Source: Pezizomycotina sp. ARF18 (taxonomy: Eukaryota; Ascomycota). From it: a stretch of 64,000 bases of DNA. The position numbers and the translations under genes were made by a program. The stretch lies in contig AZLU01000071.1 of the NCBI GenBank assembly GCA_002224055.1, positions 59,438-123,437 on the forward strand, written 5' to 3'. The notes beneath the pieces were generated by a model, which was given only the letters and a program-made list of their open reading frames with translations, had not been told where the DNA came from and made no database searches. Each line of letters opens with the position of its first letter. The stretch's first letter is position 1. Shown piece after piece: positions 8,987 through 64,000 of this stretch.

Positions 8987-11900
8987 TTCCTATCTCAACA
9001 AACAATAACTACTAATCGGTCATGTCGAAGAAAATATTAATAATCTGGGATGTCGACTTCTTCAAAAAAAGTGTTTCAAAAAATACATACAGCTAATGCT
9101 AAATAATAATCACAAGAAAGAAGTTAATTGATATGGTTCTTTCGACAAATAGGAGAGCCATCTGGTATTTGAGAGAAAGTCTTTTATTCGGAAACAAAAA
9201 TCTTTTTTTCTATTCATCACAAAACAAAAGGGAGTTTATTATATATATTTTTCTTATTTCACTTACTCACGATATTTCCCTCTTCTTAATCATTTTATAG
9301 GTTCATTGGTTCTTCTTTCCTTTGATATTCCCCTCAATCTTTCCTAACTCACATACATCATGACCACTTGGTCCCAACACTCTTTCAAATTGCTTCTTAA
9401 TGGCTTTTTCATATTAGCACACTGGCTCTTTTGTTTTATTATATTCCAACCTCATAAACCTTCTTTGCTCATTTCTTACTTAATCATGTCTTTCTTTTAT
9501 CTATTCATTCTGTTTATATTCGATATATCGATCACCAAAGAACCACCCAGAAACATATACTCTCCTATCGTCATTTGTCTATTCTTTCTTTTGTTTGGCT
9601 TGTATTCTCTAATATTTTCTTTTATAATCGTTGCTTGCTTTTCTTACTTTTTCTTAATCTGTTTCCCTCTAATTTGTGTTCTCCGATATTAAAAGGCATC
9701 ATCCGTAAATCAAAATTTCTTTTCATATTTTCTCTTCCTTGTTAGTTTTGTATTCAGACGACGACGACAATGTTCACATTCTAAACAATGTTCCTCTACT
9801 CTTTTTTTTTTGCTATTATATCAAATCTGTTATTAATAACAGAGCATTTTCGTTAGAAGAATTTGTTCACTTTCTCCGAGGTTTCGGTTTTGTATTGTCT
9901 TAACCTGGAATTCACGGCGTTCACGACAGTAATACTTCCTTTACTATTTTTCACTTTCTTCCCTTAATGGTATGCTTTGCATTTACAGGCGAAATCGACT
10001 GTTTTCTTGCTGTTGTAATCGTCTGTTCTTCACGCATTTATAATAAACAGGCGGTGCTTTTAAATATTCCCTCTCCTTACTCTAATTTCATTAAGAATTG
10101 TTAAATCTCCCATATATACATCCTGTTGATGAATCTTACGTCTTACGTCTTCAGCTCTAACTCTGTATAATAATAATGATACTTAGTATATAATAATATC
10201 TCACATTCTAAAATTTTTTTTTATTTATTCTCTTCCTTGCTATTTCGAATCCATATTCAAAAGCATTTTTCGGCAAAGCATCTGTCATGGGTCTTTCTCC
10301 CAGCTTTCCGTTTTCTCTTTTCTTCTTACTCTGAGTGCATTAACTATAACTTTTTTTTTTTACTCTTTTCACTTTTTGCCTCTCAAGCTACTTAGGTTTC
10401 TGCGTTTCTCGAGGAATTCTGCCTTTTCTCTTTTCCTGCTGTGTAACTTTTACTCAAGTATTATTATAGACAAGGCGCATTTAATATTTCTCAGGGTAGT
10501 ATTTTTGAAATTATTGTTTAAATCTCTCATATTTATCGTTCGACGAATCTTAAGCCTTACGTCTTCTGCCTTAATTTTTGTAATCCTATTTTTTCTCCAA
10601 AAAATCGCAATTAAGCGCCGCTACTACCCTGCCCTAGAGCCCTTGCCTTCTTCGTCACGGTTTTGCCGACACCTCCGGCTTCAAGGGCAAGGTTCAGCGT
10701 TATTTTCCTTTTCCTTCTTGTCTTATACTTTCACACTTTCGTCCCTTTTCGGCGTTCTGGACCCTTTGCGCCTCGGAACATGGATTTGGAGATATATAAT
10801 TACACCATCTACGACGTCTATGACCATTTCGTTGTTGGTAGTATATATATATATAGAATAGAAACAAAAATTCTAGATTTAATCGAGCGAATTTTTTCCT
10901 CAGAGTGTTGGTAAATGAGCATACCGGAAAACTGGGATATGTTAACATGTTACCTGTGCTTACGGAGACGTGAAAGATGAAGGATAGGACAGGTTAAGGT
11001 AACCTGTACTTCCCGCTGCTGAAAGAACAGGGAAACAAAGACGAGGCGGTTTCTGTATGGGTTTGCCATGTCATAGACCTCCGCGGATGTCTTTGTTAGA
11101 TACTTTGAAGAAAAAAAAATTTTTTTTTCTCCAATGATTAATTCGAGTGCTTTCGAGTTTTACAGATAACGTCGCGGCATAACGTTAGGACGTCAAGTGC
11201 AATATCCGATATCGTCAATGCGTTCAGAAAATATACGAATTTATATCGCTTTTGCCGCCATCTGATATCTTTGACACACGTTGTACTGAATATTTCATCT
11301 AGAAGGATATTTGACAGAATAGAAAGAAGTGTCAAGTATAAACGGTGCAACGTCCATTAGAAGAATAAAGGGCACGGACACCAACACTACTCGGTTAAAT
11401 GCAACATTCAGAAGTTAAAGTCTATCCGCATTATGTGGTGTTTTTTCGGAGTTGATTACTCGAATTCATTTTTTAAGACAAATTTTTTCGTCTCGCGACG
11501 TAACTCGGACTTTTGCTTCGCTCTGTATTGTATTTTATTTCTTCCACGGCCCGAAATTCACGGCCCGAAAAAATTCCAGAGAAGATGATGAGGTGAACTT
11601 GCTGCTACTTGTATTTTTCAAGATAGTTGAGAGCTTTTTTGAAGAACTCCAATGAACCTTCATGTTGTTGTTGGATTTTCTGTCAATACTCGGACGGTTA
11701 GTGCCGCGTCTTATCCTGACAATTTTCTTGGTCGTACGTAATAAGAGCTCTAAGGGAAAGAAATTGAATAAGGAAAGGGAGTATCGTACTTCGAGGTTAG
11801 CTTCAACGCTCTAGCCGCTTGGAAAATAAAAAAGTTCACGATGTTTATTCGGTAAATTTCGGTAAACTAAGAGAGAATTAAATATTCTTATTATCTCGTG

Positions 11901-19114: not shown

Positions 19115-22100
19115 ATGGCGTCAGATCCAGATTCCTCTTCTGCGACGATCCAGCTCTCTACGAGCCCCAATACCGCCTTGGCCTACCTACCACCGGTCGA
19201 GCTGCTTGACATCATACAGCAATTCCGTTCGTATACGACCAAGCGGGCACCAAATGGCCACACACATCAATATCCTATACCCATTCGTCCCAGATACTCC
19301 CTGTCCGCCGCATCCTCCATTATCTCTCAATCTGCAGCGACCACTTCACCGTCAAGGTATCGTTCATCAGGGCGGAAGCATGGAGGTTTAAATCGCATGT
19401 CACGATCGTACTCATCCCCTCCATCGACTCATCTAACGCTATGGAAGATCTAGACGAAGAGCTGTCGCACGTTTTTCCACGCGGACCGAAGGCGAAGAAC
19501 GTCGGAGATGGAACGTTCAAACCGCACTTGACGATCGGACAGGCTCCCGCCGACGACGAAGTAAAGATCGAAAGCTTGAGGCGGAAGGCGGAGATGCTGT
19601 GGCGAGCGCCTCGGGGAGACAACGTGGAGTTTATCCTCCCTGGTGCGGAAGAGCGGGAATATGAAGCTCTTCGAGAACTTCGGGTCGGATTACGACGGTA
19701 GTATTTCGCTGAGTCCCGATGCGGTCGACGGTAGCGTTATCAAACGGCCGACGTACAGGCACGACACTTCGGCCACAATGTGGGCGGAGTATAAGGTCGT
19801 AATGTGGTCGGAGTACAAAGATGTTGAGCTTCAAGGGTTACCGACGAATATCACGGTGGGGACGTATAACGTCATGTACGAGCTTGACAATTCTCTGGGA
19901 CGGTATAAAATTGCGGTATCCAATATCATAGCCTCGAACGCGGACGTGCTGGTGCTTCAGGAGGTAACCGACGGCTTTTTGGAATTTATGATGTGCAACG
20001 TCGACGTCGCGACCAAGTACCCGTACTGTACGCACTGTCCCGGCTTGCCGCTCGTGCGCATGCACAATTGCGTACTACTGAGCTCGCAGCCGTTCGAGTG
20101 GGAGGAACTTGTGGTAGATAAGACGAAGAGCGCCGTCATTGCGAAGTTCGGCAAGGTTGAGGAGGGAAGTGATAGGAAAGGATTGGTGGTATGCGGTGTA
20201 CACCTCCCTGCACATCTCACGGAGAGCAGCATCGCAAGGAAGCGGTCGTATTATAAGACCGTAGACGAACATTTATCTAAGATATATCCGGAACAAGCTT
20301 GTATTGTTGCTGGCGATTTTAACCTTCACGAGGAGGATGTCGTTGAGAAGGCCGTCTCGGAGCTCGGCCTCATCAGCAGGGAAGACGCCAATTTGCTCGG
20401 CGAAGTATTCCCACCGGCGCAGTACGTCAACGCCTGGCAGGCCGCCGGCGACGACGTGTACGGTTCATCAGGGGCCACGTTCGACCCTTTCACGAACGAC
20501 CTAGCGCGGCAAACCGCGGAGAAGCACTCCAAACTACCCCTCGCGAAGCACAGCTTCGACAAAATCCTCGTACGCACCGAGGTAGCGAGAACGTCAACAT
20601 CCGCGAAGCCAAAAATTCGGAAAACCCAAGCTTACCGGATTACCGGTCGGCAGCGACCATTACGGCCTACAGCGGAAATACACTTCAAAGAACCGCAGGA
20701 GAGCATGAGCGAGGAACCGTTGGAGCTCATGGAGGCTGCATTTACAACTGAAGACGTGAAGCAGCTCGTGCTCGAAGAGGGGCTCGTGCCTACGGCCGAA
20801 GATACGTTGCTACGAGAACAAGCCGTCAGCGTCCTTAAGCGTTGCCTGCGCGGCGATTCTCACGGTAGCGATGCGTCGAGCGCGAAGGAGGAACGTTCAA
20901 GATGGAGCTCCGCGTTGTGGGAAGTACAGCCATCGGCACGTACGACGGCGATTCGGACATCGACTGCCTCGTCGCCGGTAACATCACCGCGAAGGTATTC
21001 TGGAAGGTCGCGCGGCAGAGGATACGGCGGTGGGGAGGCGCGGACGGTAGTCACCACATGGGCATCAAGGTAGTTCGGTACGTCGACGCCGCCGTGCCCA
21101 TGCTGGTACTGCTCGTCGGGGGTAGTATTAGGGTTGATTTGCAGTATTGCACTGCCGTGCGACTTGTTGAAGCGTAAGTTGCTGTTATTCCCTTTTTACG
21201 TATTGTGGTTGAAGAAATTTGAAGCTGATGTTCTAATTAAGTGGCAAACACGCCCGAACATCCCGCCGACGGACCCGCTGTTTAACCTACCCGTCATGAC
21301 GCTCAAAAAGCTCCGACCGGTCCGGGACATGGACCACATCCTCTCCGTCCTCCCGCACCTACCGAACTTCCGCCTCGCCTACCGCTTCATAAAACTGTGG
21401 GCCATGCGCCGCGGGATTTACTCCTCCAAGTTCGGATACCTCGGCGGCATCCACATCACCCTAATGCTCGCCCGAATCTGCATTTTACTCCCCGCCGACG
21501 CTACGGTTCCGCAGCTCCTCCGCGTGTTCTTCAACCAGTACGCGAACTGGGACTGGGCGGATAAAGAGGTCGTTCTGCCGATTTTACCGAGGACGATAAG
21601 GTACCAGCGCGGCGCGAGGGAGCCGATGGTTATACTTACTATTACGACGCCGGCGACGAACGCGGCGTTTAACGCGAGCAGGCATACCGTGCACGCTATA
21701 CAGAGGGAGATGAGGGTTGCGGATTCGAGGCTTGCTACTTTAAGTGGCGACGAATGGTCGAGTCTTTTCGGGGAGTCGTGGAGGGATAGCGCGCAGGCTG
21801 GGGCTGCGGAGTTTTTGTCGGCGTTTCCGACGTATATAAAGGTCGAGCTGCAATTCTGGGGCAGGTGAAATCTAAAGGGAGGGCGCTCGTGGGATTTGTA
21901 GAGAGCCGATGCGTCATGTTACTCGTTTTACTGGCGGAGAAGTTTCCGGGCGTATCAGCACGGATCTGGCCGAAGCGGTTCCGCGAGGTATCCTCGTCGC
22001 TGGATGGGGATAAGGATAGCGAAGAGCTACGCGGGTTTTACCTCATCGGCCTAACGAATTCCTCCGAGACAACGCTTACAAAAGGAGAGAAGAAACTTGC

Positions 22101-22699
22101 AGAGTCGAAGATTACGGAGGCGATACGCACGTTCGAGACGACGCTGAAGAACAACATGGACGAATCGACCACGTTCTTACAAGTCAGCGCCGTCAAGCGG
22201 TCCGAGCTTTCAACCCTCAAAAACCACACCGTTAAGATCGACGACTCGGGTATCTGGGACGGCAACGTCGGCGAAGAAGAATCCATCGACGCCTTGTCTT
22301 TGTCTGACGACGAAGACGAAGAAATCGATAACAACGACGAAGCCGCCGCCGCCGCTAGCTTATCAACTAATATTCTCCGCCCGGTGTTCACCGTAACGGA
22401 AGCGGCGGTAAGAAGCGGCACGAAATAACGGCAGGACGCCGAAGCTGCGTACTAGCTTGGATATATATAATCGGTTGATGTGGGATGATAAGTACGACTC
22501 GTCGGATTACTTGATCGGGTACGAGGATAGGTTTAAGGGAGTGATGGAGATGGACGTCGTGAATTGGAAGACGGAGATGAGCGACGAGGAGTTCGTGCCC
22601 ATGCACCGCGTCGTGTACTTTAAGAGGAAGAGCGACGGGGTTAAAGTGTGGGACAGGGTGTGGAAGAAGGATTTGATCTTTGGGAGCGGAGTCGTATAG
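19115..22699 (+). CDS. RNA-repair fusion: 2H + EEP + PAP-like NTase + MJ1316
   Basis: A large multidomain protein probably acting on damaged or cyclic-phosphate RNA ends. Order: (1) 2H phosphoesterase (LigT/AKAP18-like), with HINILYPFVP at 19263 and FKPHLTIGQ at 19525 supplying the paired H-x-N/T motifs. (2) EEP phosphatase of TDP2-like type, with NITVGTYNVMYE, VLVLQEVTD, VVCGVHLPAH, IVAGDFNLHEED and KHSFDKILV. (3) Poly(A)-polymerase-type nucleotidyltransferase, with VVGSTAIGTYDGDSDIDCLV and the third acidic strand IRVDLQYC, then the PAP central domain (FRLAYRFIKLWAMRRGIYSS, FGYLGGIHITLMLARIC) and the PAP C-terminal domain (YIKVELQFWG onward). (4) MJ1316/DUF504 domain, with YLIGYEDRFKGVMEM, VYFKRKSDGVKVWDRVW and LIFGSGVV at the stop. 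About 1,180 residues are encoded. I chose the ATG in TACCATGGCG. Frame changes occur near 19220, 19350, 19690, 20910, 21170, 21860 and 22430. The acidic linker near 22300 should be disordered. Confidence 0.88.
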
Positions 22700-22883: not shown

Positions 22884-23439
22884 TCATCCTTCTTCCCTCC
22901 TTTCTCCTCCACAACCCCCCTCCAAACCTCCACGACCCCTTACCCACCCCCAAACAGGATCACTATCCGGCAACCCCACCTCACTAAATATCCTCCTCCG
23001 CTCCTCACCAACATCCTTCCTCTCATCGCTGTACTGCATATCCCAACTTTTACTCCCCGGGTACGCCCCCACCATGCAAAACCATCCTCCTTTTCTTCCA
23101 GCATCATGTGCGATACGCCCGCCGGTACTATTATAACGTCTCCCGTTTTTACATCGATTTCTTTCCCCTCCGTGTTTGTTTCAGTTTGGTCGGAGTTATC
23201 GTGGCCGCCGAAGCGTAAAAGCGCTGCTCCCGAAACACGCCGAGGGCTTCGTGCGTGTTGGAGTGTAGTGCGATTGCTTGTACATCGGGTAACGCCATTG
23301 GGGGTCCAGTTGTTTGAGGAGAAGGTGTGTTCGATTGTTGTTGGTGAGACGGTGGAGGGAAGGCGGAGGGGTAGAGAGTGAGGGGGAGGGGGAGTTGGGA
23401 TTTTGGAGGTTGGGGGAGGTGGATGTGGAGTGGTTTCAT
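22884..23439 (-). CDS. YjlB-type cupin protein
   Basis: A small single-domain cupin of the bacterial/fungal YjlB-like family (COG4297), whose substrate is unknown. On the minus strand the N-terminus MKPLHIHLPQPPKSQLPL leads to FSSNNWTPNGV. The first cupin motif is HSNTHEALGVFR, then ALLRFGGHD, and the second motif is GDVIIVPAGVSHMML. The family-typical tail MVGAYPGSKSWDMQYSDE and VGLPDSDPVWG follows. The His and Glu residues expected for metal binding are present. About 180 residues are encoded and there is no intron. The parts lie in three frames. The gene ends tail-to-tail with the RNA-repair gene, 184 bp apart, so their 3' ends converge. Nothing links the two functions. Confidence 0.78.
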
Positions 23440-24190
23440 TGCTGGTGATGCTGGTGGCGTTGGTGAGTATGGATGTGAGCAGAAGGTTTGTTGGTGGATG
23501 GGTTTTGAGTATGCGCCCGGTGGATGTTGTCGTTTGCATAAATTTGATGCAGTTCTGATGGATCGTGAGATCTTTGAGATTTCTACTTAGTAGTAGGGAG
23601 GTGAGATTGATCGATCTTGATCCGTGCGATAGAGGTGAGGGAGGTAAGGGGTTTGTATGAGATGGTTTCCGCCCAGACCCGATGTTTCATGGAAGTTGAA
23701 CCTCGGCCGAGACGTCATCCCCCCCCCCCCCCCGCAAAAGTGGCTCGCAGGGGAAGGTTACACGAAGATTCCCAGGCAATATCCGTAAAAGGACGCCCCG
23801 CAGAACGCACATTATACACACATATTGGACACCATACGAGTCTCGTTGATTTCGAAGGATTTTATACCGGTTTCGCCATTTATAATATTTGCGTCGGCTG
23901 CTTTCTCGAATTTCGGCGTAATAAAGGTGCGGAGGGCGCTCGGTCTTCGAAGACGGAATGTTATATGCTTGAGCGCATACTTAAACAGAATATGCAGATA
24001 CCAATTGCAGAAAAACGCTCTAATATGTTTCATTATATTTTCTTCGAAACGCTAGAAGAACGCTTGCCGCTCCTGATAAAACATTTGCTACTTGACGACG
24101 AAATAAAGCAAAAATAAGAGAAAAAAAGGAATCCCATGCATATGCTCAACTACCAAAACTCGACCAAAAAAACCACAACGACGCATCAAC
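23440..24190. other. Spacer between the cupin and TOK genes
   Basis: Contains a C run at 23719-23733 and a 166-codon plus-strand ORF crossing that run. The ORF has no family resemblance and is probably chance. The interval should include the promoter of the minus-strand cupin gene and the 3' end of the TOK gene. Confidence 0.4.
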
Positions 24191-40110: not shown

Positions 40111-42335
40111 ATGGCCGTTTTCCCTACCTTGAGAAATACCGCGCTAGCGGTCTTAACCCTCGCCGCGATCGCGCAGCAGCTGTCGCTCTGCCAATGGATC
40201 GAGCTCGAGTTCGATTGATTTCGATCGCCCTACGAAACTATTTGCCAGGCAGTCCCAGGTCTCCATTACCCCGCTCAATACTAGCGAGGGTCAGATACCA
40301 TTCCGAAGAGAATGGTACCAATTCCAGCAAGATAACTATGCTTTCAACATTTACCTACTCGCTATGGAAAGGCTACAGGCACAATCCCAGAGTGCTAGCA
40401 ACCCTACCGGTTATTATCAACTCGCCGGAATACATGGAGCGCCTTTTACCGCTTGGGATCAAGTGTCTGGGGAAATGATAGGGGGGCTACTGCCTGCACG
40501 GAGACCAATGTAAGCAAACTTACCACGCTAATTTAAGAAAACAAGCGACGCTTTGATAACGATTCTAACAATGATAAACCCCACCAAAAAGTATTTCCGA
40601 GCTGGCACAGACCTTATTTGCTTCTGATGGAGGCGCAGATATACAAACATGCCAACGACATCGCTAAAGAGTTCACGGACCCCTATAACAGGCAGCTCCA
40701 CATGAACGCGGCGGCTAATTTCCGCATGCCGTACTGGGATTGGGCCACCAACCCCGCTGTGCCTGACGCTATCGGCAGTTGGTCGCAGATCACCGTGCTT
40801 AGGCCTGATGGGAAATCTACACTATCCATAACCCGCTGTACAGCTACAGGTTCCAAGACCTCTCGGAGCTTCCAGGTGCTCCTTTCAATCAAATGCCGGA
40901 GACGGTTAGAAACCCTGGCTGGGACGGAAGGCAATACGTCTCGCAGCCGGCAGTTACGAACCGGAATATGATCAACATTGGCCAGAACTTGCGCTCTCGC
41001 GCTTACAATCTGCTCACCGCGTATCATGAGTTCGCTTCCTTCTCGAATCACGCCCCTGGTAGCGCTTCGGGCCAGGGCTTTGACTCTATCGAGGTAAGAA
41101 TTTTCCTAAATATTCTTTAATTTTGGTTCTAAGGAAAATAAAGTTAACAACGTTGTTTATCTAAGTCGCTACACGATACTGTTCATGGTACAGTTGGTGG
41201 CAGGTAAGTTTTGAAATCAATTATTTCCCGTGTTATCGATCTTAACCATGATATTAACGGTTCCTGAAAAAACAGGAACGGACACATGAGTATCATCGAT
41301 TATGCCGCTTTCGACCCGATTTTCTGGCTTCACCATACCAACATCGACCGCCTTGTAGCACTTTGGCAAGCGATTCACCCGGCACCTGGGTCGGCAACTC
41401 GGTCAATAACAACGGAACCTTTTCGCAGCCACCGGGAACCGTCGAGAACGGCAATACGCCGTTGACGCCATTCCACGCCTCTTCTAATTCCTGGTGGACT
41501 TCGAACAGCGTTATGGACATTAGGAGGCTCGGGTACAATTATCCCGAGCTGGCGGACTCCGGAAACGTCGGTGGTTCCATAATTTCTTACGTCCAGCGTA
41601 CTTATGGAGATAATCAGCCCCCCATGGCGCTCTTCAATGCAAACCCCAGCATGGTTTCTAAGCGAATTATCGGCTCCACGATGCCGACCAACAACACGGA
41701 GCGCACCTCCCCATGGCCGCTGCGCCGCATCCTAAGACCCTCGCTCAGGCTCCGTCGCCGGGACAACTTACAGGCCACCACGAGAAGCTCGTGGAGGATA
41801 ACTCCTACAACGAGTACATCACGAACATCCAATGCAACGCCGCCTCCCTCGGTGGGTCTTTCAATGTCCACGTCTTCTTCGGCGATGTACCGGAGGATAA
41901 GGCCGAATACGCTACTTCCCCCAACCTCGTCGGAACTTACACCGTCTTCACGATGGCCGATCCGATGAGCAATATGGTCGCCGGTACGGTGCCGCTTACC
42001 TCCGCTCTCCTGAACAAGGTCGTGGAGCAGGAGCTCGAGAACCTGAAGCCAGAGACTGTTCACGAATACCTCGACCAGAAAATGCAATGGCGTGTCGCAG
42101 CAGTCGACGCTAGCAATGATAAGGACCACTGTCACGTCCAGGAGCTCAAGATCCAGGTCGTCACAGCTAAGGTTCAGCTGCCATCTCCGTCGACGAGCTG
42201 CCGGAGTGGGGACCGTTCGAGGTGCTCAAGGACGTTACGCAGAAGCCTACAAGTCAACCTTCTACTACCCAGTCGGCCGCTGAGACTGGCACTGATGCTA
42301 GCTCCCAATCTGAAACTCAACCTACTGATCAGTAA
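40111..42335 (+). CDS. Tyrosinase (type-3 copper polyphenol oxidase)
   Basis: Oxidises monophenols and o-diphenols to quinones in melanin-type pigment formation. The start [20 protein letters not shown] is hydrophobic and may be a signal peptide or anchor. CuA region: [20 protein letters not shown], then [17 protein letters not shown] and [16 protein letters not shown]. CuB region: [19 protein letters not shown] and [18 protein letters not shown]. The His ligands are therefore all visible. The C-terminal domain contains [18 protein letters not shown] and [11 protein letters not shown], ending in a Ser/Thr/Gln-rich tail at stop 42333-42335. Introns fit at about 40510..40591, 41094..41165 and 41204..41275. 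At least five frame changes are needed. About 640 residues are encoded, as usual for the long ascomycete type whose C-terminus shields the active site. Confidence 0.92.
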
Positions 42336-45300
42336 ATGATCGGGAGTTCTTAAAGAATTTTGAAAGGATGCGATACCCAAGTCTTTAAGATGAATATTTT
42401 TCCCTTCGCATAAATTTTGGTTCACGCAAAATACCATAAATTTATTTTCTTTTTGTCATTTAAATTTTTTTTTTTGGATCATTAGACGTTGCGAGATAGA
42501 GCTTGCATAATTGCTGATTGCAGTAGTAGTAGTTGACTATACTAGTAAAATATTATAATTCTTATAATTCTAGAAGAATCGTTTAGTGAAGTTACATACT
42601 TAAGTAATCATAGCACCTATTAAATTGTTGCTAAATGTAGATAAATCTATAAATCTATATATATTTTCACAAATAAATATATTATAGTCTGTTTGTCATA
42701 CTGCAAACATACCTAGTAGTATTGCTATAACCGTATCGTATAAACTTTGCATTTGTGAGGTTGTTATTAATACTAATAGCTTAGGCAAGATTCGTTACAA
42801 GTACTACAGGCTAGAGGTTCACTATCTTACAGATCATACAATAACAAAAAAAAACATTATATTACGCATAAAGGATAAAACACAAAAATACAAGCACTTA
42901 TACTTTTAAATACAGAAATATATAGTTAGAGTAAATACGTATTTATAATGAAAGTGCTAATAGGGAAAGGAATAACGAATTTTTCTTCGTTGAGGTCTTA
43001 AACCTAGAGTTTTGGCTAGATGCAACGACATCGCGGATATATGTATATGGTGGCTGTCAGGGTAAACCAAGCCTTTTCTTGCCCGTAAGCTTGGGTTAAG
43101 GCTTGTACACCAACATGAACTAATCGGCTAAGTAGTTATTGACGAGTACTTTACGTTTACACGCAAGGATTTAGACGCTGTATAGGGCCGGTTCTACGAA
43201 ACATTCACCAAGATAACTTTGACTAAGCTAATATCGCACTTATATAAAGTGCCGAGCTAAGAGATATCTACAAGCCGTCGTCATAGCATTCTTTTGCCAT
43301 TTCTCTAGGTAACTATTAGACAGGTTGTAAAAACTCAAAGCCGGTCTGAACACATATCAATAGCGATCACGTTTGTATGCTGATCCGTTTTCACATGGTC
43401 CAAATAAACTACTTTCCAGAATCGGGGATATCAAGGAATGGAAAGCATTAATCCGATTGCAATAAACAGAGTTGGGCCGTCTGATATACAGTCAAACTAA
43501 TCAGCGTGAAGGACTTTATGTTGGCCCGGAATATAATCTCGGCCCGCAAGATGCCGGGAACTGTACGTGAGCTCGCTGAAGCATTGACCAGGGTCCATGT
43601 CTTGTCCTCTACGCACATCGCTAAAAAAGATACAAATGATGCTTGCGAGACTACGGGAACATCGGCACAACCGCTCGCTTTTAAGATTAACAAGGAGAAT
43701 ATACCACGTTGATATTCATTTCATGAATCAAAAAATCACTTATAAGTAGCTAGGCGTGAGACTTCGACAAATCTAAGCATGAATATTGAATGTCTGTTTA
43801 GCTTAGGTTTATAATGGAATATACCTGAGCAAGATCTGTGAGCGTATGTATTTCTCGAACTGGAAAATTTGTTGGTAAATCAGAAATTAGTACAGATCAG
43901 TTATAAAGATCTTCTCTGTGGGATATTCGCCAGTGTATGAATGCGCAATAAATAAGATTAATCTGGTAATGTGCTGCTTCGTAAACGAGATGTAAAGATT
44001 TTTTACGTCTCTTAAGCCAAGGAAACCAACCATATCATGAATGACTCCGAAACTTGCGCAATTTCAAATTACATCGATGTCTTCGGAAGTGTTCCGTAGT
44101 ATACATAGTCTGTTGTATAAATTTTCAGTGAACTCTTCTGAGCTTTACCATGAGGAATAAAAATAGGATATAATCACGAGAAAGAGAATAAGATAGGAGA
44201 ATACGGATAGAGCGTTTCACGATATGACAAATCTGAGGGTATACCAAGGAAGAGAGCTGAGAACCAAGCACCGCGAGACGGGACTAGAACATCCGAGAAG
44301 AAATCCCTGCATGAAGGGGAGAGGCGAACTGGTGGCTTGCAGAAAGTATGCAGCCCTATTAGCCAAAAACTTCTCCTTTGTCAAACACAAGAAAAACTGA
44401 CCTTTTTTTCAAAAAATATAAATAAATAAAAAATAAATAAAAATAAAAACAAGCCTTTCGAGCGTCAAATCGATATTTCGTGAATTATAAAATTTTTTTC
44501 CCCTTTCGCGATACAAAAAGAATAGACCCGCAGCCTCGCAAGGATTGTATTATTAGAATAGAGTCATTTAGTCATTCCTTCATGAAAAGTCGCGAGGTAA
44601 AATACAGATTAAAAACGTCAATGCAGCTGCCAGGTGATCAATCGGTTTAACGTTCATTGGCCAAATATAGTAGGGCTTCGAATAAGTAGGTGCCATATAT
44701 AGCGCCGTTGACCGCGATCGTCAAGGTCCATCCTCGAGCTCGCACTGAATGGTCTTTTATCGAACCAAACAATACGCTTATTGGCTGGATTGTAATATAA
44801 AGCTATTCTCTCTCAGAAACTCTCTTAAACTGTGTCTTGGAAAGGAAGTGATATATTAAAATACCGCTCTCCACATTATAGTTTGCCAATGCATAAACAA
44901 GACGGTTTTGTTTGGCTTGGTTGATGCTTAGCTAGTCGCGCGTTGGTGTTGATTGCCAGTGACAAAATGTTGGAGATTAATTGAATTTTCGATTTTAAAG
45001 GAATTACGGTCGGCAATGACAACTGAGTGTCGCGGAATGTTTCCTATTGGCCGCGTTTTAACCAATTACCTAAATACTCAGCGGCTGAAGTAAAGTAGAG
45101 AAAGTATAAACCAAACATTCATATATTTCAGACTCTTTATCGGCAGGAATTCTTAGCCTTGAAAAGCTTGTGTACAAATGTATCCATGAAAAAGAGAAAA
45201 GAAAAATTACTATCAGTGAGCCAAAGATATGATGGCGCCATTGTGAACATCTAGATATATACGTTGTGAGAAACCAGAAAAAAAAAAAAAAAAACAAGGA

Positions 45301-60147: not shown

Positions 60148-62329
60148 ATGACTATCTCAAACAACTCCTCAGGATTCCCGGATGAGTTCGACATCATCGT
60201 GCAGGAGGTGAGAGAGAAAGAAATGAATCTAGCCATTCCTTTTAAAAAATAGGGCAACCTGTTGCATTCAACGAAAGAAAAACCCGTTTGTGTTCGCTAA
60301 CGAGGAATGCTGTGTAACTTTTGCAGGCGGTAGCGCCGGATGCGTCGTTGCCGGCCGCCTCGCCAAGGCCGATCCAAGCCTGAAGATCCTGGTCGTCGAG
60401 CACGGTATCAACAACAGGGACCACCCGAACGTCGTCAACCCGGGCGTCTTTCCTACGAACCTCAGGGCCGACTCGGACACCATGTCCTTTTACAAGGGCA
60501 ATGAGTCGAAGGACTGAACGGGAGGGCGCCGATCGTTCCTATCGGTAAGATTTTCTTGCTTTGCCCGCTCGAGATGTGGGCGAATATGGAAAAAGGTGTG
60601 GGGGCTGATAGAGATGATTTTCAGGCAACGCTTTGGGCGGTTCTGGATCTGTCAATTTCATGATGTACACCCGCGCGCAAGGTATCGATTACGATAGCTG
60701 GAAGACGGAAGGATGGTACGAGAAGGACCTTATCCTCTCTTGAAGAAGGTATTGCATGAAGCTCTTTCTATCCATTTTTGGAGAATTTTTGCGAATTGAT
60801 GCTGAATGAGAATCGGTATTGTAGATGGAAACCATCCATGCCGACGGCGAAGAGTATGATATGTCCATTCACGGCACGTCGGGACCATTCCAAATCTCCG
60901 ATGGAACCTTTACCGTCGGCTCCCTCACCGAAGACTTCATCCAGGCAGCAGAACAGATCGGCATCCCGAGGGCAGTTGATTGTCAGGATCTCAAGCAAGG
61001 GCACGCGGTTGCCAAGTGGAAGAAGTGGATTGACCCCAAGACCGGTCGCCGCCAGGATGCCGCGCACGTCATGATCCACCCGCAACTCGATGCGGGTAAT
61101 ACCGGCCTGCACGTTCTCACCGAACACGAAGTCGTCCGCGTCCTCTTTGACGGCAACAAGGCAAACGGTATTGAAGTTACGCCTACGAAGAAGGGTCAGA
61201 CGGAGCTCGTGGTCGCTGTAGATGCGAGCGAGGCGATAGCTAAAAAGACCTTTAAGGCGAAGAAGACAGTCGTCGTCTCATGCGGGTCTCTGTCTTCGTC
61301 GCGCGTGCTTGAGAGGTCTGGCGTCGGCAACAAGGAACTACTTGAGAAGCTAGGAATCGATGTTGTTTCGGACGTCCCCGCTGTAGGTGAGAACTACCAG
61401 GACCACAACCTCCTCCTATATACCTACAGGTCCAAAGTCTCTCCCGAAGAGTCTCTCGACGCCCTTCTCGCCGCCGTAAAACCTTCGAAGCAGCTAGCAA
61501 TGAGCTGAAGACAACCGGCAAGTCGACCCTCGGCTGGAACGGTATTGACGCCGCGATGAAGTTCCGCCCGACGGAGGAAGAAGTCAAAGCCATGGGCCCA
61601 GAGGTTCAAGCCCTCTGGGAGAAAGACTTCAGGAACCAGCCCTCGAAGCCGTTCATGTTGATTGCACTCGTGTCCGGCTTCCTGGTTGATCACAAGGCGC
61701 TCGGCGTTCCTGAGGGCCAGTACATGATGCTCGGACCGTACACCGCTTATCCATACTCCCGCGGCTCCATCCACATTACTTCGAGCGACGTGCACAGCGA
61801 GCCGAACTTCGAGACCGTTTCATGAGCCACGATGCGGACGTCAAGGCTCAGGCCTGGGCGTACAAGAAGCAGAGGGAGATTGCCAGGAGGATGAAGCTCA
61901 GCGGCGGACCGTTCGAAGCCGTGCCGACGCCGCGGTTCCGCGAGGGATCGAAAGCACTGGACGAGTCGGTGCAAGGTGAACTTCAGTACGACGAGGAAGA
62001 CGATAAAGCGATCGAGAAGTACATCAGGGATATGGTTCAGACCACGTGGCACAGCTGCGGTATTTGCGCGATGAGGCCCAAGGACGACATGGGAGTTGTC
62101 GATGGAAGTTTGAACGTCTACGGTACCGAGAACCTCAAGGTTGCTGATCTGAGCATTATTCCGGAGAATGTAAGTTTCCGAAACCCTCATAGCAAGTGGA
62201 GAAACCCCTCGTCGCATGAGCTAACGATGTCCGTTTACCCAGGTTGGTGCAAACACTTACCACACTGCCCTCCTCATTGGCGAAAAGTGCGCTACTATCA
62301 TTGCAAAGGAGCTGGGTATTCCGATGTGA
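60148..62329 (+). CDS. Alcohol-oxidase-like GMC flavoprotein oxidoreductase
   Basis: FAD-dependent glucose-methanol-choline oxidoreductase closest to fungal alcohol (methanol) oxidases, which oxidise short alcohols to aldehydes and make H2O2. The start MTISNNSSGFPDEFDIIVQE joins, after the intron at 60208..60326, GGSAGCVVAGRLAKADPSL (dinucleotide-binding fold). The second intron is 60545..60624, then GNALGGSGSVNFMMYTRAQG (GMC signature 1) and DYDSWKTEGW. The third intron is 60749..60824, then GTSGPFQISDGTFTVGSL. Signature 2 is VVVSCGSLSSSRVLERSGVG; then VPAVGENYQDHNLLLYTY, FMLIALVSGFLVDHKALGVP, AWAYKKQREIARRMKLSG, TTWHSCGICAM (active-site His). After the intron at about 62169..62242 comes GANTYHTALLIGEKCATI (active-site Asn), ending ELGIPM at stop 62327-62329. 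No canonical C-terminal peroxisomal tripeptide is visible. About four frame changes are needed. Confidence 0.9.
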
Positions 62330-64000
62330 ATAGATTGGTATTGACGTTTGAAATTGGAAAGCAACCTCCGGAAACACGAGATTATGCGAAAATTTGATGA
62401 AACTTACGATCCCAAAATAGAGGAAAAGCTCATGGTGGAAAATTGCTATAGTTATTCTTCCCTATTTCTTTTGGTTTGGTTTGCTGGTATGCTAAGTTGG
62501 TGATTACTACATGGGCTGGTTTTGCTTTGCGTTATTCTTGTCCTTATTTGCAGTTGGTTATTTCATTCATTAACCTCAATTCGCCTTGCTTCTCTTTGCT
62601 TTGATTTCTTCTTCTCTCTTAAGAAATATTCTTTGGTCTTCTCTGCGAAAAAATAGCTGGTTATTCTTTAGTCGTGCATTCTTAGGCAGTTCTTCGAATG
62701 AAATCTTCTATGGTGAGATGCTTCTTCCTCCGTGCGCTCGTATGATCTGTCGAAGCAGTGGGCTTTACGCTTGCCGAATGGTGAATCCCTGTAGCTTCAT
62801 GTTGGAGAGACCGTGAAGCTGTCAAAGCCGTCGCCGCTTCGTCCTCGATAACACCCGTCGCAGAGTGCGGACTTATAGCGGCGCTGATGCGGCGCCCGCC
62901 GCACATACGCCACATTTACAATTTCCCTTCCCATCACTCGTGAGGATTATTTTTCTCAGCATTCCTAAAAAAAAAAAAAACAAGCTTTTCGATATTTCAG
63001 CTATCCACAATGTATTTTTCATGCATGCAGATTATTTTTTTCCCCTGTCCGGTGCAGCTCAGCGTACATAATACCTTGTCTTTTTTCCCTACTACGAAAC
63101 GAAACTGACGTTTCAAGGGACTTTTTGGACTATCAGATGCAGAGGGGTGGTCTCAGCCACGATGGGGGGAATTCGGCTGTTTCTTTTTTTTTTCCTTCAA
63201 GGAACTTCTTGATTTTCGCAAAATGCGAAAAGGTAAAGCTTCGGTTTTGATACTATGATTATCAAATTGAAGCACAGAGGCTACGATGGTTGAAATTTTC
63301 GTGGGGTGGATTGTGTGCCGGGTGTCATTCGGTTAAGCGCCCAGCACTTCCTCGCCTTTTCATCATGATTTATTAGCGCCGGTGCGACCGTTGCTGGGAG
63401 TGGCTTGTATAGCAAAGCAAGGGCCCGAGAGCGCTCGGAAATCGTGGGCTCCCTGAACACTGGGGGCCATGAAAAGCTTAAGCGCTCGATAACCAACGGT
63501 CGGTCATCGTATTTTCATGGTCCAAGGTTTTTATAGAGGCGCTAGTGTTAAATATAGATAGCGGGATTGTGAATCGATTCCTAGCGATGGTAATTTTATA
63601 GGGTAAATAGTGTTACAGTTAGAGCTAGATGCTTGCTGACATAAATATATCGGTTCTATATATATCTTAAAATCCTCGATGGTAGGGTAGAAAACACCTA
63701 GGTCCGTGGATCTAACATGAGCGCTTGGTCTTTCAGCATTCACTCAGGGCGGTATAACGGTCCGTTTGAATCGCTCACTCCCTATAGGATATATGCAGAT
63801 CATCATGCCGTAATATCCAACCATGGCACGAGGGCTAAACGCAGCGAATATCTCATCCGGTAATTAAGCCTACAAGCAAACAATTACCAGAGAATTGATT
63901 CAAACATGTTAGGTTTTTTGTTTCCCGTTGTTATTAGAGTTAAACTTTCTTCCAAAGCTTCCTTCATATGTCGAACAATTTTCGGATCATTAAGAGATAG
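62330..64000. other. 3' flank and spacer
   Basis: AT-rich sequence with an A run at about 62968-62981. Short ORFs on both strands resemble no family. No gene or RNA is supported up to the window end. Confidence 0.5.

Follow-up and report, generated by a model that had tools for sequence, protein, structure and literature searches.

A fungal gene joining 2H, TDP2-like EEP, poly(A)-polymerase-type and MJ1316 modules, and its bacterial four-module counterpart, as a probable system for healing and tailing RNA 3' ends

In a stretch of 64,000 nucleotides from the ascomycete Pezizomycotina sp. ARF18 (assembly GCA_002224055.1, contig AZLU01000071.1, positions 59,438 to 123,437; hereafter the window), the gene at window positions 19115-22699 of the plus strand encodes a 2H phosphoesterase, an exo/endo-phosphatase (EEP), a poly(A)-polymerase-type nucleotidyltransferase and an MJ1316 domain in one protein. 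Judged by its sequence, it is a fusion of three RNA-end enzymes with one proposed RNA-end sensor. Since MJ1316 is described as having diverse fusions to RNA-repair domains across eukaryotes (PMC6514570), the fungal gene belongs to a kind already in print, and its modules stand in another order than in bacteria. What is chiefly new here is a bacterial four-module counterpart, which occurs among cyanobacteria, actinobacteria and Myxococcota and in a few other bacteria. The reading that we favor, and consider probable, is that one gene gives rise to a protein of several enzymes, which would locate the 3' ends left by RNA cleavage, heal them and then tail them.

The gene was read in three frames, and seven single-frame pieces of 19115-22699 were scanned separately against Pfam. 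The features are as follows, with the open reading frame (ORF) carrying each Pfam match given in brackets.

19115..19698, plus strand: 2H phosphoesterase module, in pieces; start codon at 19115; 2_5_RNA_ligase2 (PF13563), E 3.2e-7 on the C-terminal piece (ORF 19210-19701, profile positions 46-133 of 152)
~19170-19310, plus strand: N-terminal part of the 2H module, assigned by eye; first motif HIN near 19263
~19294-19593, plus strand: C-terminal part of the 2H module; second motif HLT
19640..20700, plus strand: predicted TDP2-like EEP module; Exo_endo_phos (PF03372), E 4.7e-8 (ORF 19580-21073); last strand SDHYG in another frame near 20652, by eye
20869..21173, plus strand: nucleotidyltransferase palm of poly(A)-polymerase type; NTP_transf_2 (PF01909), E 1.1e-6 (ORF 20869-21177); GS, DSDID and the third D in RVDL
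21174..21241, plus strand: candidate 68-base spliceosomal intron, GTAAGT...CTGAT...AG, from reading the sequence; phase off by one base
21242..21865, plus strand: poly(A)-polymerase central domain; PAP_central (PF04928), E 7.4e-24 (ORF 21074-21868)
21850..22425, plus strand: probable poly(A)-polymerase C-terminal (RNA-binding) region and acidic linker; weak, E 0.083 with a bacterial profile
22412..22699, plus strand: MJ1316 domain and stop codon; PF04457, E 5.9e-19

A sequence-only reading of this DNA had placed all of these modules in one gene and had proposed profile searches as a check. Pfam recovered the 2H, EEP, nucleotidyltransferase, PAP-central and MJ1316 parts, in that order, while the poly(A)-polymerase C-terminal domain that it had also named is weak; the pieces 19115-19453 and 21790-22428 gave no Pfam match. 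Against the PDB, the PAP-central piece matched a poly(A) polymerase at 1.1e-19. The active-site motifs named for the three enzymes are likewise readable, with HIN (H-x-N) and HLT in the 2H module, LQEV, GDFN and HSFDK in the EEP module and GS, DSDID and VDL in the nucleotidyltransferase, and the SDHYG of the EEP module can be added to them. By eye, the fungal pieces retain residues equivalent to the catalytic columns of the bacterial alignment given below, the exception being W51 of MJ1316, which is M in the fungus. The SDH of the EEP module and the first 2H histidine sit in other frames, in weakly scoring pieces (blastp E 0.26 and 0.010), and the SDHYG piece was assigned by eye, its best blastp match to a bacterial homologue (E 0.26) standing beside 0.29 for a control ORF.

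The fungal EEP module is TDP2-like as far as profile and predicted fold go, in line with the sequence-only reading. TDP2 is its nearest solved relative by profile search, and an AlphaFold2 model of 19640-20590 (predicted local distance difference test, 79.8; predicted template modeling score, 0.82) placed TDP2 first with both Foldseek and VIA-align. An alignment with 41 bacterial homologues underlies both the profile and the model, and in Foldseek the staphylococcal beta toxin, another EEP protein, nearly equals TDP2 (5.8e-10 versus 4.9e-10). The module has the LQE, H, GD-N, D and SDH motifs. A phmmer search of the PDB returned nothing for the single EEP piece and nothing meaningful for MJ1316. 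While the EEP profile and predicted fold are common to TDP2 (tyrosyl-DNA phosphodiesterase 2; VPg unlinkase) and the fungal module, the latter is part of a multi-enzyme RNA protein.

The bacterial counterpart is present on plasmids. Using tblastn (E <=1) against plasmid records, the MJ1316 piece matched 7 records and the EEP piece one, which is among those 7; ORFs were listed for six of the seven loci. Calothrix brevissima, Embleya sp. NBC_00896 and Nonomuraea gerenzanensis each encode one protein of ~975-990 amino acids with MJ1316, EEP, 2H and a poly(A)-polymerase-like part, and in a second Embleya record the Calothrix protein aligns over 94%, in two pieces. A survey with one genome per species, covering 84,980 prokaryote species, gave 339 relatives, and our counts of loci rest on the best 80 of these 339 matches (79 distinct loci), a set biased towards the query. 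By record title, these are 30 actinobacterial loci, 25 from Myxococcota or delta-/proteobacterial metagenome-assembled genomes (MAGs), 21 cyanobacterial and 3 from acidobacteria or Bacteroidota. A frame of more than 850 amino acids is found in 76/79 loci, the proteins being ~1000 amino acids long with the order MJ1316-EEP-2H-poly(A) polymerase. In the alignment of these 76 sequences (L071, L074 and L092 were dropped), the two 2H histidines are retained in 76/76 and 76/76, as are each of the EEP residues N, E, H, GDFN D and N, LDR D, and SDH D and H, and each of the MJ1316 residues H, R, W and R; the three nucleotidyltransferase aspartates are retained in 76, 75 and 74 of 76. The third position of the first 2H motif is N in 53/76 and T in 23/76, the H-x-N form being found in 18/19 cyanobacteria, 30/30 actinobacteria, 4/24 of the Myxococcota group and 1/3 of the others. 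In the bacterial homologues, the nucleotidyltransferase half can be aligned with complete poly(A) polymerases (profile 588-961, E 2.8e-67; Foldseek 2.9e-26), and there the C-terminal region is clear.

Per-module profiles built from these 76 sequences and run on all 1658 window ORFs of at least 25 amino acids matched the fungal gene with MJ1316 (3.6e-17), EEP (9e-22), 2H (2.2e-11), nucleotidyltransferase (4.2e-7) and PAP-central (6e-26), the 2H profile also matching the HIN piece in its other frame at 0.014. Outside the gene, the single window match at E <=1 was to MJ1316, at 0.79. The best pairwise identities are 44% over 82 residues for MJ1316 (a Polyangia MAG), 30% over 191 for PAP-central (Corallococcus) and 26% over 250 for EEP (Argonema). 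The modules and catalytic residues of bacterial proteins such as Calothrix brevissima BAY66805 (annotated thpR_2) are common to the fungal gene, and so is the H-x-N motif of the bacterial majority; the two differ in the ligase-kinase partner, found for bacteria and not in the fungus, and in module order, 2H-EEP-PAP-MJ1316 in the fungus versus MJ1316-EEP-2H-PAP in bacteria. Going by this order, the fungal gene is a rearranged variant that falls outside the bacterial-order group. In a concatenated tree, the fungal branch is long and not placeable among the bacterial rows, so the direction and number of transfers or fusions cannot be told from it. A canonical eukaryotic poly(A) polymerase shares with the fungal gene the palm (three Asp) and the central domain, and with the bacterial homologues the C-terminal region as well; what sets the fungal four-module version apart is its fusion to end-healing modules.

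For the bacterial neighborhood, every frame of the 79 loci was searched with ligase and kinase profiles grown from neighbors of the Embleya gene. In 34/79 loci, an ATP-dependent RNA ligase precedes the four-module gene on the same strand, and in 0/79 it lies downstream, the upstream cases being 27/30 actinobacteria, 7/21 cyanobacteria, 0/25 of the Myxococcota or delta-/proteobacterial MAGs and 0/3 of the others. Kinase matches occur in 39/79 loci, 37 on the same strand and 2 on the opposite one. In actinobacteria, the ligase and a Pnkp-like kinase share one frame at 27 loci, and this frame ends between -14 and +12 bases from the start of the four-module match in 26/27 and at +50 in the remaining one, as measured to the profile match and not to a proven start codon. 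In cyanobacteria, the two enzymes occupy two consecutive frames at the 7 ligase-bearing loci. Where no ligase was found (45 loci), the contig offers fewer than 2600 upstream bases in seven cases, among them 2 of the 3 actinobacterial ones, where the kinase is present. With Pfam, two of the ligase-kinase proteins matched RNA_ligase (E 2.7e-34 and 7.5e-33) and AAA_33 (3.7e-21 each). The closest solved relative of the kinase is 4jst (E 4.9e-4; PDB name metallophosphoesterase), which we take to be the kinase domain of Clostridium thermocellum Pnkp. Two such fusions of RNA ligase (PF09414) and P-loop kinase (AAA_33) directly upstream of the four-module gene, L024:4043-6001 and L027:4214-6001, have more than 200 residues without a Pfam match between the two domains.

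The observations to be explained are the modules with the residues conserved at their active sites, an EEP predicted to fold like TDP2, and a bacterial counterpart that often lies beside an RNA ligase and a kinase; from these we infer each catalytic step, the order of the steps and the RNA substrate. In the proposed scheme, MJ1316 would first bind an RNA end carrying a 2',3'-cyclic phosphate, the 2H module would then open it to a phosphomonoester, the TDP2-like EEP module would take off the remaining phosphate to give a clean 3'-OH, and the poly(A)-polymerase module would add nucleotides, which would either replace trimmed-off bases or mark the end. Another protein would do the sealing, where there is any. 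The sequence-only reading had cited MJ1316 as a proposed recognizer of cyclic-phosphate ends, and a statement to that effect is found in PMC6514570, where the rebuilding of trimmed RNA by a nucleotidyltransferase is also proposed, for other repair systems. In yeast and plant tRNA ligases, it is the 2H domain that opens a cyclic end, giving a 2'-phosphate (PMC3400036). The EEP protein ANGEL2 is reported in PMC9525292 to hydrolyze 2'-phosphate and cyclic ends in vitro, and some mitochondrial RNAs are described there as keeping terminal phosphates and losing polyadenylation without it. End healing and tailing is the function that best fits the modules and the bacterial ligase-kinase neighbors, and to this extent the earlier functional reading is supported. 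The description of a self-contained repair machine is not, since no RNA ligase or 5'-kinase domain matched Pfam at E <=1 in the seven gene pieces; such a protein could not itself rejoin ends. The task of the Pnkp-Rnl-Hen1 and Trl1 repair enzymes is broadly alike, in that cleaved ends are healed and then sealed (PMC3400036, PMC4411300). These enzymes differ in containing or binding a ligase and a kinase, neither of which was found in the fungal gene.

Several points weigh against this proposal. Neither a ligase nor a kinase of this type was found in the 25 Myxococcota or delta-/proteobacterial MAG loci (0/25) or the three acidobacterial or bacteroidete loci (0/3), ligases of other types, such as RtcB, not having been searched for. 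Of ten neighbors sampled at six ligase-free loci, five had Pfam matches, none of them to an RNA enzyme, and the other five had no match. The fungal genome gave no PF09414 ligase, in a search that is weak on broken frames (Exo_endo_phos gave two places). The textbook 2H motif is H-x-S/T, and the fungal first motif is H-x-N rather than this. It is TDP2 and not ANGEL2 to which the fungal EEP module is closest, and TDP2 is known for acting on 5'-phosphotyrosyl ends. Furthermore, ANGEL2 left 3'-phosphate in place in the in vitro work reported in PMC9525292. The literature searched on MJ1316/DUF504, 2H and related RNA-end terms contained no report of activity for any family member.

The strongest rival is that the protein is a surveillance enzyme, cleaning and tailing cleaved RNA ends for degradation instead of repair. 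The lack of a detected ligase or kinase domain in the fungal gene would suit such a role, as would the four-module genes without such a ligase or kinase nearby in all 25 (25/25) of the Myxococcota or delta-/proteobacterial MAG loci, and the yeast and plant tRNA ligases are described as typically needing the 2'-phosphate that a phosphatase would remove (PMC3400036). Yet bacterial homologues are often coupled to a ligase and kinase, and ligases are able to act in trans, so that we regard tailing for decay as unlikely, if worth keeping in mind. There is also a modest chance that a pathway independent of any ligase is common to bacteria and fungi. A single protein would here take an RNA from a cyclic-phosphate end to a re-extended or tailed 3' end, a TDP2-type EEP would serve as the terminal RNA phosphatase, and the four modules would have been rearranged between kingdoms about a poly(A) polymerase of eukaryotic type.

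It could alternatively be argued that the EEP module acts as TDP2 does, on 5' protein-RNA (tyrosyl) adducts, and so clears links between RNA and protein or the proteins linked to viral genomes. TDP2 comes nearest among solved relatives by profile and ranks first by fold, a host activity cleaving 5' tyrosyl-RNA bonds is described in PMC3049768, and TDP2 is named as VPg unlinkase in PMC7077319. Such a role leaves the 2H and MJ1316 partners unexplained, and also the genes for Pnkp-like kinases, which go well with 5'-OH and cyclic ends, and we think it has only a small chance of being right.

As for the integrity of the fungal gene, each of the five strong module matches has an ORF to itself, these ORFs being in two frames, and reading through the 3.6 kb takes ~nine frame changes when the stretches recognized by eye are counted. 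Removal of the candidate intron, from GT at 21174 to AG at 21241, leaves the frame still off by one base. Two adjacent genes, for instance a 2H gene followed by an EEP-polymerase-MJ1316 gene, might therefore be supposed, as continuity is not directly readable across broken frames and the EEP frame has Met codons ahead of its first strand. However, the overlapping module frames leave little room for a promoter, and the MJ1316 ORF has no ATG ahead of its domain, its first Met being residue 23, inside the domain match (residues 13-82). The MJ1316, EEP, 2H and nucleotidyltransferase columns, moreover, co-occur in 76/79 bacterial loci, which makes a split into two genes improbable.

More improbable still is the making and breaking of a nucleotide signal, with synthesis like that of OAS or CD-NTases and the 2H and EEP modules as 2',5'-phosphodiesterases. 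The Calothrix protein has a weak PADLOC match to an oligonucleotide cyclase (1.9e-7), and some 2H and EEP enzymes (AKAP7, PDE12) degrade 2-5A. Nevertheless, the bacterial nucleotidyltransferase half aligns with whole poly(A) polymerases, and ligase and kinase neighbors do not fit such a signal.

The HSP70-family genes of the same assembly served as a control for the frame breaks, with five loci and 29 junctions between neighboring pieces, of which 9/29 were intron-like and 20/29 were frame changes, 17 of the 20 by -1 or -2 bases. The rate is about one frame change per 390 matched bases in these loci versus about one per 400 in the four-module gene, by the by-eye count, and this similarity implies that assembly indels explain the breaks better than decay does. 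That several frame changes within 3.6 kb mark a decaying pseudogene is the least credible explanation of all, as the HSP70-family genes break about equally often and the active-site residues are retained across the broken frames. The assembly is apparently rich in single-base deletions (20 HSP70 frame changes in 7.7 kb matched), and genome-wide gene calls need care.

Returning to the healing and tailing of RNA ends, the fate of RNAs that end in a 2',3'-cyclic phosphate has, to our knowledge, been little studied in filamentous fungi. Modular repair operons with ligases and nucleotidyltransferases have reportedly been treated by Burroughs and Aravind in 2016. Because the bacterial counterpart is a single open frame, coupled to a ligase-kinase in actinobacteria, the order of the chemical steps is directly testable with purified proteins. 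In this way, the sensing of ends by MJ1316 and the removal of terminal RNA phosphates by a TDP2-like fold could also be tested biochemically, and a poly(A) polymerase of eukaryotic type would be given a role in bacteria.

In the fungal genome (46.36 Mb, 408 contigs; family counts are lower bounds), the four-module gene is the only place found for MJ1316 (PF04457) and for the 2H family PF13563, both at E <=0.001. PAP_central has one further place, a separate gene on contig C69, and Exo_endo_phos has two, the four-module gene and one other. More than two Exo_endo_phos genes are expected in a fungus, and broken frames probably hide some.

Among bacteria, three Streptomyces plasmid loci have a short MJ1316-2H gene instead of the four-module one (L028:6001-6909, L029:4298-5161 and L026:5833-6513); two are intact by reading, Pfam having been run on one, and the L026 gene is apparently truncated, with transposase genes behind it. 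In Calothrix brevissima NIES-22, a conjugative plasmid carries one copy of the four-module gene and the chromosome another, 82% identical and with a shorter frame of 894 amino acids (L031, L050). A sample of the Myxococcus phylum gave an MJ1316 match in 63/193 genomes, 45 of the 64 matches lying in frames of at least 1000 amino acids and 19 in shorter ones. In four of its loci (L118, L125, L126, L127), MJ1316 lies in a frame of 113-272 amino acids and the other modules were not found within 3.2 kb. In one genome of the same phylum, two matches at G135:C333:6281-6472 and 9560-9775, in neighboring frames of 1138 and 1060 amino acids, are possibly tandem four-module genes. No relatives were found in IMG/VR by single-protein scans with the EEP, PAP and MJ1316 pieces, nor among phages by tblastn with the MJ1316 piece or the Calothrix protein. 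PHROGs gave one weak match for the Calothrix protein (1.7e-5) and none for three window pieces, and the NCBIfam matches were all below the cut-offs.

Elsewhere in the window, a cupin-like stretch (by eye) lies directly downstream of the four-module gene at 22940-23686 on the minus strand. Frames resembling a tyrosinase (41258-42339), a cytochrome P450 (54466-55766), a GMC oxidoreductase (60825-62397) and a glucoamylase (350-1213) were also recognized by eye, some of them frame-split.

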